Of a stretch of DNA of 64,000 nt, positions 14,596 through 21,320 are shown piece after piece. The position numbers and the translations under genes were made by a program. A model generated the notes under the pieces. The model was not told the origin of the DNA, made no database searches, and saw nothing but the letters and a program-made list of their open reading frames with translations. How positions within the stretch are numbered: position 1 is the stretch's first letter; each line of letters begins with the position of its first letter. This stretch comes from Candidatus Methanoperedens sp. (GTDB lineage: Archaea; Halobacteriota; Methanosarcinia; Methanosarcinales; Methanoperedenaceae), in the NCBI GenBank assembly GCA_027460525.1, contig JAPZAS010000003.1, positions 1 to 64,000 on the forward strand, in the 5' to 3' direction.

Positions 14596-14811
14596 TCAAT
14601 AAATTTCACCTTTTACTCTGGTTTTTCTGATGTATTCAGTGGGCTCTACAGACGCTGCAACTGCCTTTTTAGTTTTAGCGAGGTATTTCCTGTAATCTTC
14701 TATAGTAAGCAATGGCTCATGTTTTGAAATAAAAGACTTGAGTAATTCGAGCTGTTCTTCGAGAGCTTTGATTTTTTTATCCACCTGAAGTTTTTGCATA
14801 TCTGCACTCAA
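14596..14811 (-). CDS. Small helical protein of unknown function, downstream of HepT
   Basis: 71 residues, with a predicted coiled coil (KLQVDKKIKALEEQLELLKSF) followed by IEDYRKYLAKTKKA. I do not recognise a family. It lies 62 nt after the HepT gene on the same strand and may be a remnant or an accessory of that toxin-antitoxin module. The start is ATG at 14811; support is only moderate. Confidence 0.45.
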   Translation of the reverse strand: MSADMQKLQVDKKIKALEEQLELLKSFISKHEPLLTIEDYRKYLAKTKKAVAASVEPTEYIRKTRVKGEIY

Positions 14812-14873: not shown

Positions 14874-15221
14874 TTAATTACCTTTCATTTCAGAAAGGAG
14901 TGCCAGAGTATTCTTTTTCAAATCAGGTAGCTTGTTTTCCATTACATCCCATACGATTTCCAGATTTATTCCAAAATATTCGTGCGTGAGAATATCCCTT
15001 AATCCGGCAATCTTTTTCCACTCAATCTCTGGTTTTTTATTTTTTATCTCATCAGGAATTTTCTTAACAGCTTCGCCTATAATTTCCAGATTTCTTGCAA
15101 CGCCGTCCTGTCTTAATTCATCTTCTCTGAAATCCCCATAAGACATGTTTTCGGTATATTTTTCAATTTTACGGATAGACTCAAGAATGTCTTTAAGATA
15201 CGCTTCATACGCCCGCTGCAT
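14874..15221 (-). CDS. hepT: HEPN-domain RNase toxin HepT (DUF86)
   Basis: Toxin of the HepT/MntA type VII toxin-antitoxin system. In this family HepT is a HEPN ribonuclease that MntA silences by adding AMP to a tyrosine. The catalytic RX4HXY motif is visible as RDILTHEY, and the tyrosine is the AMPylation target in characterised members. The 115 residues match the family. The start overlaps the MntA gene by 17 nt. The module lies between the ABC transporter operon and a restriction-like operon. Confidence 0.9.
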   Translation of the reverse strand: MQRAYEAYLKDILESIRKIEKYTENMSYGDFREDELRQDGVARNLEIIGEAVKKIPDEIKNKKPEIEWKKIAGLRDILTHEYFGINLEIVWDVMENKLPDLKKNTLALLSEMKGN

Positions 15222-15519
15222 ATTTTACACTCCCGATGATGTATGGTTTTAAATCTGGTTTAATTACTTCTTTCATTACAAGATCGACTTTACATTTGAA
15301 CAGGTCTTCTAAAAAGAATTTAAGATCCATGTAGTTGTCGAATGTTATTTTACCTTTTTCAAATTCAACGAGAATATCGATATCGCTTTCGGGTTTTTGT
15401 TCTTTTCTGATGTATGAGCCGAATAATCCGATTCGCTTTACGCCGTATTTTTTTATTGCGGCTTTGTTTTCTTCGAGTTTGGTTAATATATTTTTGTAGT
15501 TCAGCATTTCAGTTCTCAT
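15205..15519 (-). CDS. mntA: MntA-like minimal nucleotidyltransferase antitoxin
   Basis: Minimal nucleotidyltransferase of the MNT family. The catalytic motif GSX10DXD is present as GSYIRKEQKPESDID, followed by a third acidic residue in CKVDLVM. Such proteins neutralise HepT by AMPylation. The length is 104 residues. The start is ATG at 15519, but a second ATG 4 codons on (MLNYKN) is equally plausible. It overlaps hepT, the usual order for this pair. Confidence 0.9.
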   Translation of the reverse strand: MRTEMLNYKNILTKLEENKAAIKKYGVKRIGLFGSYIRKEQKPESDIDILVEFEKGKITFDNYMDLKFFLEDLFKCKVDLVMKEVIKPDLKPYIIGSVKYAAGV

Positions 15520-15618: not shown

Positions 15619-15993
15619 TTATGGCTGTCCATGCAACAACCCCAATTGTGACCAATCCAATGTGCCAATCTCAACCTGATGATGAATTTGATTAATACCC
15701 CATTCAGCGGAATCAACCAACTTCTTCGCTCGTTCTTCTGGGGTTATATCGGGATACAACCCGATCATGATTGCCGCAAAAATACCTTCTGGATCTAGGC
15801 TGTTGATGTTTTGGAATGTCTCTCTCTTTCCTTTTCTTTCAGATTGATTTAAAACTATACCCAGCGCAGCACCTAGCCGCCACGCATCTCTCTGCTCATG
15901 GAATAGCCCCTTAGATACTAGCTCTTTCATTTGCTTTTTCGCGCGATCACTTGCAGGAAAGGTCCTCATATCTCCAAACGCATCATCATTCAT
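15619..15993 (-). CDS. Small protein ending the defence operon (possibly DndE-like)
   Basis: 124 residues: a helical N-terminus (ASDRAKKQMKELVSKGLF, RDAWRLGAALGIVLNQ) and a C-terminal half with DPEGIFAAIMIGLYP and ITPEERAKKLVDSAEWGINQI. The start overlaps the DndD-like ATPase stop by 4 nt, so they form one unit. Small proteins beside DndD ATPases include DndE, which also starts with a helical region ending in an ALxxSL-like helix. The similarity here is weak, and I would not assign DndE without a structure search. Confidence 0.6.
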   Translation of the reverse strand: MNDDAFGDMRTFPASDRAKKQMKELVSKGLFHEQRDAWRLGAALGIVLNQSERKGKRETFQNINSLDPEGIFAAIMIGLYPDITPEERAKKLVDSAEWGINQIHHQVEIGTLDWSQLGLLHGQP

Positions 15994-17990
15994 GGCGCAA
16001 CCTCCAAATCTTGCGTTGCGAACACTCGTGATCCCTCTTTTTGGCTTTTGTATATAATGGTGAAGTCATTCTTGATTTTTCCCTCAAGATATCTTTCATC
16101 CCCTTTTCTAAAATCTCGATCCGTTACCAATAGGACCACTTGATCTGCTAGGTTGGGGAGATATTTTAAGACACGCTCGCCATGTTTTATATCCAATCTA
16201 CCAAAGGGTGTATCCATAAACACTGGTGCTTTTACGTGGGCTGATTTATTAAGGGCTCCAATCAATGCCAAGGCAACGATCTGCTCCTCACCCGCTGATC
16301 TCCATTCACTTCTGCTAAGGCAAGTTCCATTTTTAGTCATTATGGATAAGCCAAATTGCTCATTAATTTTGAGGCTATCAAACTCTTCTTTTGAGCGTAT
16401 CGTTCGAAATATTTCCGTAGCAATTCGTTCAATATCGAATTTTTTCTTATCTCTATATGATGAAATAGCTTCTTCAAATACTTCTTTTACAGATTCTACA
16501 AACTCAATTCTTTTCCCCAAAATGTTGATCTCTCGCTTAGGAATACTGGCTAAACTTGCCTCAAATTCTGCCTTCGTTTCTTTAAGACCCAATACCTCTT
16601 CTGCCTTAACCTTTACAAGACCTTCAAGTCTCCCCTGTTCTTTTTTCAAGTTTTGTATAGATATTTCTAATTCTCGTGGCTCTTCTTTATCTTGCCCGGT
16701 CAGTTTCCCTATTATGTCATTTAATTGCGCCTGTAGTGATGCTAGTTCATGATCTATCTTGCCTATTTCGTTCTCGATTTCTCTGAAATCTTCTCTAATG
16801 TTACTGTGGGAAATTATCTTTTCTAATCTTGTTTTGTGATGCTCAAATGTCAAATTTGGCTCAGGGATTTCTGTTAATTGTTTAATAAGGATTTCAGTTT
16901 CATGAAGTTCCTCCTCTAACTGCCGAAGTTTCTTTGGCTCTAGAACAGTGCCGCATAAGCTACATTTCTGTGATAATATCCCTTTCTTTAATCTCTCGAC
17001 TCTTTCAACCGCCCGTTGTTTATTATTATACTTCTCTAGTGATGCCTCAGATTTGGCAGTGAGATGAGATATAACATTTTTTGCAATCGGTTTAAGTAAT
17101 TCCTTGTATAGGTCTTTAACCAGTGCTTGCATCTTCTCCAAAGCTTTTTCCTTTTTTTCCTTTTTAAGACTGATATCTTTCTCAATGCTGATCTGGCTGT
17201 GTGCCAGCTCTTGAACCTCTCTTATATCTGTCAGTCTTCGCTTTTTCTCAACTATTTCATCTTCAAGTTTAGATATCTGTCTAATTAGCCCTTCGATTGT
17301 TGTTTCCTTATCCTCTATTTCTGCGGTCACCGTCTGAAGACATTCTGCTAATTCCTCATACTCCTTGCCGCCAAGTTTTCTGATGAGTTTATTGCGTTCA
17401 TTCTCTATTTTCTTTTGAATGGCTACCAAGTCGTCTCTGGCAGTCTTGAAGTATGGAACACCCAAGACACGCTCAATTGAATCTCTGATAATAAACATTG
17501 ATCGGCTATCTTCATCTAGGAGTTCCTCATAATCCCGTAGCATCTCACCATCAAAGAAGTAGAACCTACTTACATCTGATGGCAGGATACGTTGTATAAC
17601 GTTCTCAGGATCAGCGAGGACTTCGCCGTCTTTAACAACATTTAGCGTCATTCCCTCAATATATTTCTTATCTTGATGACTATTTGCTTTCATTTGTCGC
17701 AAAACCGCCCACCGCCCACCATCATGATTGAAAAAAACGCCGACTCCAAATTTGTATATGTCCTCACTCAATGCGGTAAGGTTCAGAAGAGAAGTCGGAG
17801 GAATCTCTTGTCCCTTCCTATCGTATACCTTGCCGTATAGTGCCCAAATTACTGCGCGTTGCAATGATGTTTTTCCTTGCCCATTGCCTCCACGAAAGAT
17901 GATTATTCCAGGGTCACTACTCTGAAATTCAATCTTATGTTTTCCATAAAAGGAGCCAAAATTTAATATCTCAATAATATCAATCATCAT
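15990..17990 (-). CDS. SMC/Rad50-like ATPase related to DndD
   Basis: ABC-type DNA-binding ATPase. The Walker A is GGNGQGKTS near residue 30 and the signature RSAGEEQIVALALIGAL is near the C-terminus. The Walker B and D-loop VFMDTPFGRLD is the form typical of DndD proteins. Two long coiled coils flank a central zinc-hook CSLCG, as in Rad50. DndD belongs to DNA phosphorothioation systems, but no DndC-type PAPS-reductase-like protein is nearby, so phosphorothioation is unlikely. The ATG at 17990 (MMIDIIEILNFGSFYG) was chosen over a start 5 codons upstream. It overlaps the 64-residue protein upstream by 11 nt and the 124-residue protein downstream by 4 nt. Confidence 0.85.
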   Translation of the reverse strand: MMIDIIEILNFGSFYGKHKIEFQSSDPGIIIFRGGNGQGKTSLQRAVIWALYGKVYDRKGQEIPPTSLLNLTALSEDIYKFGVGVFFNHDGGRWAVLRQMKANSHQDKKYIEGMTLNVVKDGEVLADPENVIQRILPSDVSRFYFFDGEMLRDYEELLDEDSRSMFIIRDSIERVLGVPYFKTARDDLVAIQKKIENERNKLIRKLGGKEYEELAECLQTVTAEIEDKETTIEGLIRQISKLEDEIVEKKRRLTDIREVQELAHSQISIEKDISLKKEKKEKALEKMQALVKDLYKELLKPIAKNVISHLTAKSEASLEKYNNKQRAVERVERLKKGILSQKCSLCGTVLEPKKLRQLEEELHETEILIKQLTEIPEPNLTFEHHKTRLEKIISHSNIREDFREIENEIGKIDHELASLQAQLNDIIGKLTGQDKEEPRELEISIQNLKKEQGRLEGLVKVKAEEVLGLKETKAEFEASLASIPKREINILGKRIEFVESVKEVFEEAISSYRDKKKFDIERIATEIFRTIRSKEEFDSLKINEQFGLSIMTKNGTCLSRSEWRSAGEEQIVALALIGALNKSAHVKAPVFMDTPFGRLDIKHGERVLKYLPNLADQVVLLVTDRDFRKGDERYLEGKIKNDFTIIYKSQKEGSRVFATQDLEVAP

Positions 17991-18174
17991 GCTCTTCGCC
18001 TCCACTCATCTGAAATAGGACCTGCTGAATCTGCTCTTGGCATTTTAGTCGATCTTTCTCTAGAGGATTCTTTATGACTAGTGCCATGACTGTTTGGAGA
18101 ACTTTTTCCGGTACTGGATTCTTCCTCTTATCATTTGTTATTTTCAGGACCGAGATCATTTCTTCATGTTCCAC
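17980..18174 (-). CDS. Small defence-operon protein (64 aa)
   Basis: An acidic, helical 64-residue protein: SVLKITNDKRKNPVPEKVLQ, LEKDRLKCQEQIQQVLFQM. I recognise no family. The GTG start lies 2 nt after the helicase stop and the 3' end overlaps the ATPase gene. The tight packing in a five-gene operon argues that it is real; it may link helicase and ATPase in a complex (inference). Confidence 0.6.
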   Translation of the reverse strand: MEHEEMISVLKITNDKRKNPVPEKVLQTVMALVIKNPLEKDRLKCQEQIQQVLFQMSGGEEHDD

Positions 18175-18176
18175 GT

Positions 18177-20381
18177 CTATTCCTCCTGTACATCATCTTG
18201 CAAACCAATCTGAGCGTCTGATTCAATATCAACTCCATATTCCTGGGCTAATCGCCACAACTTATGAGTAACTTCTTGATTCTCTGCAAGTTGAGCAAAT
18301 TTCCAAGCACGTGCTAGTTCACCCCTTACTATTGGTATGGCATATTCATCTTCTTGAGACACTGAATTAGGAAGAACAATTGCGTCTATAATAGTTGCCT
18401 TTTGCTTTCCTTTTGCTTTTCTGAGTACTCTTCCTCTGCGTTGTATATACTCCCTCGGATTTTTCGATGATGCAAGGATTATGGCGCCATCTACCTCTGG
18501 AATATCCACTCCCTCATCAAGGCATCTAATACTCACAATTATGCTAGGGTGTTGCTCAAAATACCCCAAGGTTCTATCCCTCTCCGTGGAATCCATCTTT
18601 GAATAGTACGTTACAACATTAATGCCTACCGTTTGATTTCTGATTACTTCTGTGACGCGTCTTAATTGTTCCTCATCCTCACAGTAAATAATCCAACGCC
18701 CATCGGCAGGGTATCTTTCGGAGACAATACGATATGCACAATCGACTTTAGCTTCTGCATGTTTTAGAATACGTGCTCTTTGAATTAACAAGTTCTGCAA
18801 TCCGCTATCGTCAAATAACAAACGATTATTGCTGTTTTTTTGCATTTTCTTTGCGATATATATTTTAATCTTCGACGTGAGCTCATCCCACCTACCCTGC
18901 TCTTCTAGATTCAAATGAACAACCTCAAAGAAATAATTGTAGCGAGATAAGAATTTACCTAGTATCGGCACATCTTTTTGATCGTCCTCCGACAGTCTAA
19001 CCTTGCCTCCAAGGGGTAAATAGAAAACTGGTTCCGTGCCGAATGCATTCTTTAAGGCATTATCGCCTTCAGGATCAAATAATCTCTCGGGTGTTGCTGA
19101 TAATCCTAACCGCTCCTTAAATTGGATTTCCATGATGATACGCCGATTGATTGGACTTCCCAACCGATGCACCTCATCTGCTACAAGAACTGGATTTTCG
19201 GCTTGTTGAAGGAACTTGATAAAATCACCAGTTGCTGCCGTGCTCATGGTAGCAAGTATTATCCGTGGTAACGATTGCTTCGAAACGTACATTCGCTTTT
19301 CTGTAATAGCTTTCCAATCATATCCACCACCTGCTAGAAGGATTGGAACATGAGGATAGATGTATCGAATTTCTTCATTCCATTGGGATAAAAGAATCTT
19401 GCTTGGAACCAAAATCACTATAACTTTCCCCTCTTGAATCAAGCTTGAAATTGCAAATAATGCTGTAATTGTTTTACCTGTTCCTGTCGCCATTAAAAAC
19501 ATTCCAATTTTACCGGCATTATTCCATGCATTAATGGCCTGGCGCTGATAGTAATAAGGAGTATATTTTGGTTTATCAGTTTTATCCATGAGGGATGATG
19601 TCCTAAGATGAGCACCAGGCCTACAATCTTCGAAGCTTTTGTGTGAGCGAAATCGGGCAAGAACTTCACGTTCCACTTCGTTTAAAGGCCTTACTTTAGT
19701 ATGCTTAGTGCCTACACTAAAAAGTTTATGGAGATACTGCATTTTTTTTAATGCCTTTGAGGACTCAAAGTTGTTACCCCAACTACGATATACATCGAAT
19801 TCCTCATCGTTACCCCAGCCTTCAATCGAACTTATCGCCATTTGTGTCTCATTGCCTGAACCTGAGAATGCAACTATGTTTTCTTGAGCATCATAGAATG
19901 CACCGATTTTTCTATGATAAATTCCACCAATTCTAGTAGCAATAAATAAATCTAAAGAGCCACATTCAATAAGGAGACGAAGCATTTCTAGGCAGTCAGA
20001 TTCTTTGGGATTATTCGACATGACCTCTAGAATATCGACTAAACTCGCCTCCTGATTGTGAGTTGATCGAGAATTCCTGAGAGCATATCCTTCTCTCGCC
20101 GCATCCTCATCAGAAACTGGTATATCTGGTGAACATACTATACGAACCTTACCTCCTGCAATAACAAAGTTTAGCAAATCTTCACCTAGCTCTCGATAAA
20201 TATTTGCTCTGAAATAACCGATAGCTCGATCATAGAATTTGGAAACTTTAAGGCAGGGGGCATAGAACTCTCGAATTATATCATCATCTTCTGTATTATA
20301 TTCTGGTTTTAAGGTTATACTGATAAGGCTTGGATTCATTATATCTTTACCTTCACTTTGTTTTTCGTTATCCATTGCCAT
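18177..20381 (-). CDS. SF2 helicase with N-terminal phospholipase D-like domain
   Basis: Residues ~20-250 form a PLD-like nuclease-type domain, with YHRKIGAFYD (HxK) and SGSGNET (GSxN). Residues ~270 onward are a superfamily 2 helicase/translocase: motif I MATGTGKT, motif II DEVH, motif III SAT, and motif VI YIQRRGRVLR. The 734-residue length suits type III-like or PLD-helicase restriction proteins. The ATG start has GAGGAG 5 nt upstream. It is second in an operon after a DNA methyltransferase, which suggests that it restricts unmodified DNA. Only one HxK/GSxN half-site is visible, so a dimer would be needed for PLD catalysis. Confidence 0.87.
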   Translation of the reverse strand: MAMDNEKQSEGKDIMNPSLISITLKPEYNTEDDDIIREFYAPCLKVSKFYDRAIGYFRANIYRELGEDLLNFVIAGGKVRIVCSPDIPVSDEDAAREGYALRNSRSTHNQEASLVDILEVMSNNPKESDCLEMLRLLIECGSLDLFIATRIGGIYHRKIGAFYDAQENIVAFSGSGNETQMAISSIEGWGNDEEFDVYRSWGNNFESSKALKKMQYLHKLFSVGTKHTKVRPLNEVEREVLARFRSHKSFEDCRPGAHLRTSSLMDKTDKPKYTPYYYQRQAINAWNNAGKIGMFLMATGTGKTITALFAISSLIQEGKVIVILVPSKILLSQWNEEIRYIYPHVPILLAGGGYDWKAITEKRMYVSKQSLPRIILATMSTAATGDFIKFLQQAENPVLVADEVHRLGSPINRRIIMEIQFKERLGLSATPERLFDPEGDNALKNAFGTEPVFYLPLGGKVRLSEDDQKDVPILGKFLSRYNYFFEVVHLNLEEQGRWDELTSKIKIYIAKKMQKNSNNRLLFDDSGLQNLLIQRARILKHAEAKVDCAYRIVSERYPADGRWIIYCEDEEQLRRVTEVIRNQTVGINVVTYYSKMDSTERDRTLGYFEQHPSIIVSIRCLDEGVDIPEVDGAIILASSKNPREYIQRRGRVLRKAKGKQKATIIDAIVLPNSVSQEDEYAIPIVRGELARAWKFAQLAENQEVTHKLWRLAQEYGVDIESDAQIGLQDDVQEE

Positions 20382-20408
20382 ATCATCTCCTCATAGTAGT
20401 GGTTATAT

Positions 20409-21320
20409 TCAGATTAGCCAAGATTCTGGGAATCTAGACATTGATGCTTTCGCATATGATTCTTCCTTTTCAACACATCTCCACCTCCGATTTAATCTTT
20501 CAGCAGCCCATCCGGTTATATTGCTTCCGGCAAAAGGATCTAAAACAAAATCGTCTTTCGTAGTCAAAAAGCGTATGAAGAATTCTGCCAATTCAGGAGG
20601 CATTCTTGCTGGATGACCCTTTATACTGTTCGCTTTGCAGTATGCTAAATAGGGATCGTTGGATTTAGTATTGGGAATAGAAAGAACATTTGATGGGATT
20701 GAACCACCGTTGTTCCTCAGGAAGCTCTCCTCTCCTATCAAATGCTCAGATGGCCTTTTACCTGCATTGTATTTCCCGCGCTTTAATAACAGTTTCATAT
20801 CTTTACTATACTCATGTAATACTGCGCGGTTATTGGCTTTTGGTTTTGGAGTTGTTGATAACCACCATAAGCGAGTATACGCATCTTTAACCCGAATTCT
20901 CTCGATGTTAACCCATTGTGCCGGTGATGGAAGTCTGGTAGTATTATTCCAAATAAATTCCTGGCAAAGGTAGAAATTGCCCCTACGTTTAAACTCCATA
21001 AGAGCTTCGATGCTTAAAGTAGACATTGTGGGTATGCCCGGTTCCCATGCATTGCCGAGTTCAATCACAACAGAGCCTGTTGGATCTAGCATTTGCTTAA
21101 ATATATCAGCAAAGCCAGCTAGCCAATCAATATAATCTTTACCTTTCAGATTGCCGTAAGCTTTTCGTCTGTTAAGCGGAAATGGAGGTGATGTAAATAT
21201 AAGATTTATTTTATGTTCGAGAGGTTTAAACCATTTTGCCTCAAGTATATCTTCTGATGCACCATGATATAAGACTCCTCTTTGGGTGCGGTAAAGCGGT
21301 TTCATGGCTACTTCTATCAT
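20409..21320 (-). CDS. Site-specific DNA methyltransferase, beta class (N4-cytosine or N6-adenine)
   Basis: SAM-dependent DNA methylase of 303 residues. The catalytic motif IV comes first (LIFTSPPFPLN, an SPPF/Y form common in N4-cytosine enzymes). The SAM-binding motif I comes near the C-terminus (VLDPFAGSNITGWAAERLNR). This order defines the beta class. It is the first gene of the defence operon, 27 nt upstream of the PLD-helicase, and presumably protects host DNA. A restriction endonuclease gene of ordinary type is absent; the helicase and ATPase probably take that role. Confidence 0.9.
   Translation of the reverse strand: MIEVAMKPLYRTQRGVLYHGASEDILEAKWFKPLEHKINLIFTSPPFPLNRRKAYGNLKGKDYIDWLAGFADIFKQMLDPTGSVVIELGNAWEPGIPTMSTLSIEALMEFKRRGNFYLCQEFIWNNTTRLPSPAQWVNIERIRVKDAYTRLWWLSTTPKPKANNRAVLHEYSKDMKLLLKRGKYNAGKRPSEHLIGEESFLRNNGGSIPSNVLSIPNTKSNDPYLAYCKANSIKGHPARMPPELAEFFIRFLTTKDDFVLDPFAGSNITGWAAERLNRRWRCVEKEESYAKASMSRFPESWLI

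Follow-up and report, generated by a model that had tools for sequence, protein, structure and literature searches.

A PbeABCD (CxC-ATPase/DndE) operon with a predicted N4-cytosine methylase of the M.PvuII family in Candidatus Methanoperedens

Introduction

Systems of the CxC-ATPase/DndE (PbeABCD) type consist of a PLD-helicase, a small protein, a hooked ATPase and a DndE-like protein, and they are sometimes accompanied by N4-cytosine methylases (PMC6459918, PMC10853773). Here we describe five packed genes on a 64,000-nt stretch of DNA from Candidatus Methanoperedens sp. (contig JAPZAS010000003.1, positions 1 to 64,000; "the window", to whose positions all coordinates refer unless another locus is named), which form such a system, a predicted N4 methylase taking the place of phosphorothioation. 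The combination of a methylase with PbeABCD is already in the literature, so that the locus adds a well-defined example to a known kind of system; the new detail lies in a clean clade, the M.PvuII identity of the methylase and an empty site in a congener. In the published accounts of CxC-DndE systems that we consulted, a clade with five fixed genes and an M.PvuII-like methylase is not set apart.

A block of viral DNA replication with no cleavage to be seen has been demonstrated by experiment only for the phosphorothioate-coupled haloarchaeal Pbe system; there, each of the four pbe genes adds to immunity, and PbeB, PbeC and PbeD are strictly required (PMC6459918). PbeC and PbeD have been proposed to form an ABC-ATPase scanning complex, in which DndE would be the DNA-binding part (PMC10853773). 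Of 320 "solitary" PbeAC pairs, Xiong et al. (2019) noted 155 in the vicinity of methylases; they did not decide on a function, and so left it open whether the many Pbe cassettes that lack phosphorothioation genes are defunct or act together with methylases (PMC6459918).

The PbeABCD system of Haloterrigena jeotgali A29, which is accompanied by DndCDEA, shares with our locus the A-B-C-D order, a PLD helicase of superfamily 2 (SF2) and a protein of about 65 aa (PMC6459918), as well as an AAA_23-type ATPase, a protein of 120-150 aa, the PADLOC assignments to PbeA and PbeC, and the match to a PbeD profile. It differs in that the window locus lacks DndCDEA and has an M.PvuII-type N4-cytosine methylase in its place, and in the cysteine hook, which is CxxC rather than CxC, although certain other PbeC proteins have CxxC as well. 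PbeA of the window is only about 30% identical to Dnd-linked archaeal copies. From the methylase-coupled CxC-DndE systems, whose operons include a cytosine methylase of the m5C or the permuted N4 type, no difference in kind was found; these have all five components, including the permuted N4 methylase, a DndE-like PbeD with two ribbon-helix-helix units and the small protein SP. The PvuII restriction-modification system has a methylase (M.PvuII, PDB 1boo) that is homologous end to end to ours, but the restriction part of the window locus is PbeABCD and not a small dimeric endonuclease.

Results

Organisation of the operon

All five open reading frames (ORFs) are present, and along the minus strand they encode in turn the methylase, the helicase, the 64-aa protein, the ATPase and the 124-aa protein. 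Methylase and helicase are separated by 27 nt and helicase and 64-aa protein by 2 nt, while the 64-aa protein overlaps the ATPase by 11 nt (26 nt with a GTG start) and the ATPase overlaps the 124-aa protein by 4 nt. The longest ATPase frame starts with GTG at 18005; we prefer the ATG at 17990, as homologues begin near that position. A preliminary description had seen here a single, probably defensive operon with gaps of at most 27 nt, and it was right in both respects. The features are:

20409-21320, minus strand: methylase, predicted N4-cytosine, beta-class (circularly permuted), M.PvuII family, 303 aa (Pfam, PDB 1boo)
21180-21194, minus strand: methylase motif IV TSPPF, invariant in 8 relatives, position checked
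20520-20540, minus strand: methylase motif I DPFAGSN (S-adenosylmethionine binding), C-terminal to motif IV as in the beta order
18177-20381, minus strand: PbeA, HKD/PLD nuclease-like domain fused to an SF2 helicase, 734 aa (PADLOC, TIGR04095, tree)
19851-19916, minus strand: PbeA HKD motif HRKIGAFYDAQENIVAFSGSGN (invariant residues of the clade, equivalent motif in canonical PbeA)
19470-19484, minus strand: PbeA helicase motif I GTGKT, invariant
18429-18443, minus strand: PbeA helicase motif VI QRRGR, invariant
17980-18174, minus strand: small protein in PbeB position, 64 aa, three helices predicted (conserved family, model)
15990-17990 (longest frame from 18005), minus strand: PbeC, coiled-coil ABC ATPase with a cysteine hook (PADLOC, tree)
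17865-17891, minus strand: PbeC Walker A GGNGQGKTS (alignment and motif scan)
16953-16964, minus strand: PbeC cysteine hook CSLC (motif scan of PbeC versus DndD sequences)
15619-15993, minus strand: PbeD, predicted DndE-like double ribbon-helix-helix protein, 124 aa (hhalign, AlphaFold2, fold search)

PbeA and PbeC

The best PADLOC match of the helicase, with the best 25 families considered per protein, is PbeA (4e-180). It also matches NCBIfam TIGR04095 (dnd_restrict_1, a phosphorothioation restriction helicase) at 4.8e-97, which is below the cut-off, and its SF2 module carries the ResIII Pfam domain. Within the HKD region, H156, K158, D164, G174, S175 and N177 are invariant in the clade described below, and the HKD, GTGKT, DExH, SAT and QRRGR motifs are invariant in 7 clade sequences. 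An HKD-type motif was found in all 33 PbeA sequences scanned, the aspartate being replaced in a few distant copies.

The ATPase scores far better as PbeC (PADLOC, 5.5e-112) than as DndD (2.6e-55), its match to NCBIfam DndD (2.7e-51) is below the cut-off, and in a tree it groups with PbeC and not with DndD. The hook cysteines, C348 and C351, do not vary within the family; of the sequences checked, 25 of 25 PbeC proteins and none of 4 DndD proteins have a hook, of the form CxC or CxxC. The preliminary description, which had read these two genes as a PLD-SF2 helicase and a DndD/Rad50-like ATPase with a zinc hook, agrees with these results, and the catalytic residues, whose possible loss in homologues it had raised, are retained in the PbeA motifs and in the Walker A and hook of PbeC. 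It had also excluded phosphorothioation as no DndC-type enzyme was seen. Throughout the 99.5%-complete genome no DndC match exceeded the cut-off (no search was made for DndA), and phosphorothioation in trans was rejected, since the only matches were weak ones of a kind that control genomes also give.

The methylase

Pfam N6_N4_Mtase (1.2e-34) is the only Pfam family matched by the methylase. Its alignment with M.PvuII extends from end to end (6.6e-79, residues 2-299), with an overall identity of 47%, which rises to 53% in the 110 columns that follow LPSP. TSPPF (residues 43-47) precedes DPFAGSN (261-267), which is the permuted order of N4-cytosine enzymes of the beta class; to that class the protein had already been assigned. 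The enzyme is a member of the M.PvuII family, with predicted N4-cytosine specificity. M.PvuII methylates CAGCTG, and the predicted target is this site or a close one. CAGCTG is scarce in the window (5 versus 16.3 expected) and in 437 kb of the same genome (40 versus 79 expected under a maximal-order Markov model). Site avoidance was dropped as evidence for the target, as two operon-free congeners show the same or stronger scarcity (2 versus 9 and 2 versus 8 expected).

The two small proteins

Searches of Pfam, NCBIfam and PADLOC gave no match for either the 64-aa or the 124-aa protein. When the 124-aa family is aligned, its profile matches that of archaeal PbeD proteins (hhalign E-value 4.7e-8, 95% probability), and an AlphaFold2 model shows strand-helix-helix twice (mean predicted local distance difference test score (pLDDT) 80, predicted template-modelling score (pTM) 0.76); alignments for structure models were made without the row of the plasmid copy described below. 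The first 17 PDB fold matches of this model are all DndE (4lrv, 5wtu, 7x4e), with probabilities of 0.91-1.00 and template-modelling (TM) scores of 0.52-0.61 by query, followed by matches that include F-plasmid relaxosome chains at low probability. Since the Foldseek E-values are weak (best 0.039), the fold evidence lies in this exclusive ranking and in the probabilities. On profile and model together, the 124-aa protein is assigned as PbeD, with a predicted DndE-like double ribbon-helix-helix fold.

The 64-aa family shows 30-51% identity within the clade, with R42 invariant and C45 and Q46 nearly so; its model has three helices at moderate confidence (pLDDT 77). The protein fits PbeB in position and size (about 60-70 aa, between helicase and ATPase), and PbeB has been described in the literature as rapidly evolving. 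Of the two small proteins that had been called unknown, the larger is PbeD, and the smaller sits in the PbeB position, its homology to PbeB being unproven.

Distribution and phylogeny

A search with PbeA among 394 genomes of the phylum gave a sharp split: a handful of sequences are 57-61% identical and score about 950 bits, whereas the many others have around 33% identity and about 250 bits. The former carry the methylase followed by A-B-C-D, while the latter adjoin DndC/D/E or other genes and never an M.PvuII-like methylase. A scan of about 85,000 species yielded nine loci, from Atribacteria, Methanothrix, a member of the Methanocellaceae, two Methanophagales, Clostridia, Methanoperedenaceae GB37, Methanofastidiosum and an unclassified euryarchaeote; all are metagenome-assembled or environmental assemblies, so that the host to which a short contig is assigned is uncertain. 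The full five-gene set is also found on a plasmid of Aurantiacibacter atlanticus, with PbeA 39% and methylase 50% identical. None of the viral contigs searched has a relative.

The gene order is identical at 6 other loci (GB37, Methanocellaceae, two Methanophagales-type genomes, Methanofastidiosum and the Aurantiacibacter plasmid), and the Atribacteria locus has the same five genes with the methylase last. Because the same genes recur at other loci, the set is not a chance assembly. The methylase is present at all 8 loci where the whole operon and both flanks are visible (the window, GB37, Methanocellaceae, G210, G369, Atribacteria, Methanofastidiosum and Aurantiacibacter); loci L074, L076 and L078 start at a contig edge within or just before PbeA.

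In a careful tree of PbeA the methylase-coupled set is one clade (100/100) apart from the Dnd-linked copies, and so it is in a quick tree of PbeC (Shimodaira-Hasegawa-like approximate likelihood ratio test, 99). On these trees, the M.PvuII-coupled form, which is new here, is a distinct PbeA/PbeC clade in several lineages of methanogens and anaerobic methanotrophic archaea, in Atribacteria and on an alphaproteobacterial plasmid. The tree of the methylase has only partial resolution.

Methylase relatives outside Pbe loci

The same methylase family also occurs without Pbe. A copy that is 61% identical to that of the window (genome G184, L137:6009-9258) lies 37 nt upstream of a gene for a 756-aa protein with a weak match to GHKL/HSP90-like ATPases (1.2e-4, under the cut-off), another putative effector partner. 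M.PvuII-like methylases of 44-48% identity come right after a HEAT-repeat protein at L140, at L144 and in the Methanophagales-type genomes G302 (L142:374-5330) and G298 (L143:5985-10938); the latter two also have an SMC-like ATPase with weak similarity to LmuB (8e-30), and such loci may represent a methylase-coupled Lamassu-like system. At L138:3162-4987 and L139:4164-5925, methylases of the family stand beside a divergently transcribed 180-203-aa protein that by eye looks like a PD-(D/E)xK nuclease (GRPDF..MECK), and these pairs are probably ordinary type II restriction-modification systems. In the genome under study, several amino-methylase matches, some of them partial, cluster on contig C24 (77252-83947), which suggests a second modification or defence island.

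Discussion

Of several possible explanations for the locus, we favour a methylation-marked PbeABCD (CxC-ATPase/DndE) antiviral system, to which we assign a probability of roughly 0.7. The M.PvuII-type methylase would methylate cytosine at N4 within a short site of the host genome, for which CAGCTG or a close sequence is predicted, and so supply the mark in place of sulfur. A hooked PbeC dimer and PbeD may together scan DNA as a complex, recognising target sites and whether these are modified. On unmarked incoming DNA the complex would engage PbeA; by means of its SF2 motor and HKD domain, PbeA would then translocate along the DNA and either nick it or stall replication. PbeB may be a small coupling or regulatory subunit. 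The wider proposal, namely that PbeABCD is not tied to phosphorothioation, that the PbeC-PbeD reader has here switched from backbone sulfur to N4-methylcytosine at a PvuII-like site, and that the modification cassette is exchangeable, with the methylase family being lent to other effectors as well, we consider evenly poised.

Several observations weigh against a methylation-marked system of this kind. Pbe activity, and not just protection, has so far needed phosphorothioation (PMC6459918). The Methanothrix locus (L073) has no methylase on its upstream side, its downstream side being cut by the contig end. As operon-free congeners are equally depleted in CAGCTG, the predicted site is left without independent support. 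A sequence-profile comparison of the 124-aa family with DndE gave no signal, so the link to DndE is one of fold, and the profile match of the 64-aa family to canonical PbeB has a probability of 10%, by which homology is not demonstrated.

A conventional restriction-modification system, where PbeA, as an ATP-dependent HKD endonuclease, cuts CAGCTG-type sites that lack methylation and the other three Pbe proteins assist in translocation and specificity, would accord with the HKD motif, intact in 11 of 11 clade members, with the ResIII domain of the SF2 module, and with the pairing of same-family methylases with other putative restriction partners elsewhere. We regard it as unlikely, as Southern blots showed viral DNA still intact in the presence of haloarchaeal Pbe, and as Pbe alone was not toxic without its modification (PMC6459918); a classical restriction enzyme would behave differently. 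It is more unlikely still that the methylase is an independent passenger, an orphan or type II remnant beside a solitary and possibly inactive Pbe cassette. That the family exists without Pbe, and that the methylase tree puts the G184 copy among the Pbe-linked ones, would fit such a view; however, the gene is present at every locus with both flanks, lies 27 nt from PbeA in the window, and stays with the cassette even at its opposite end in Atribacteria, while PbeA and PbeC of these loci form a clade of their own.

The preliminary description knew of no type that fits and found a resemblance to Hma, which indeed has a helicase, a methylase and an ATPase, and so shares three broad activities with the locus. 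Hma is a three-gene system that lacks PbeA/PbeC, PbeB and PbeD, and its methylase HmaB forms 5-methylcytosine (PMC8565338), whereas that of the window is N4-type by prediction, two further conserved proteins are present, and among the 25 top PADLOC families per protein, helicase and ATPase score best as PbeA and PbeC. Hma was rejected on these grounds, the chance that it or another three-gene system applies being negligible, and the PLD-helicase, small protein, hooked ATPase and DndE-like protein match PbeABCD.

The locus is a good case for asking whether Pbe can run on methylation. Given a clean clade, a methylase at every locus with two visible flanks, and a predicted base and site, the question of Xiong et al. 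(2019) becomes directly testable in a five-gene construct. If our interpretation is true, one DNA-scanning core could be licensed by chemically unrelated self marks.

Genomic setting and neighbouring genes

The operon has 38-41% GC in a neighbourhood of about 50% GC, and PbeA is absent from the 8 congeners sampled. In congener G145, an aconitase-X-like gene is followed after 674 nt by a MntA/HepT pair (DNA 92% identical) with no operon between them, while in the window the interval from the same gene, which lies upstream of the operon, to the pair is 5.87 kb. The GC contrast, the absence from congeners and the empty site in G145 point to a mobile insertion. As G145 has MntA/HepT without the operon, the latter was gained, or lost in G145, independently of the pair, and we rejected HepT/MntA as part of the system; its position beside the operon had been correctly noted, but the pair is unrelated to it. 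The neighbouring feature is:

14874-15519, minus strand: MntA/HepT type VII toxin-antitoxin pair (HepT 2.8e-33; MntA-type nucleotidyltransferase below the cut-off, 48.1 bits versus the NCBIfam cut-off of 60)

A similar nucleotidyltransferase gene occurs near the same flanking genes in G462 and G123. Just after HepT lies a 71-aa ORF (14596-14811, minus strand) with a coiled-coil-like sequence.

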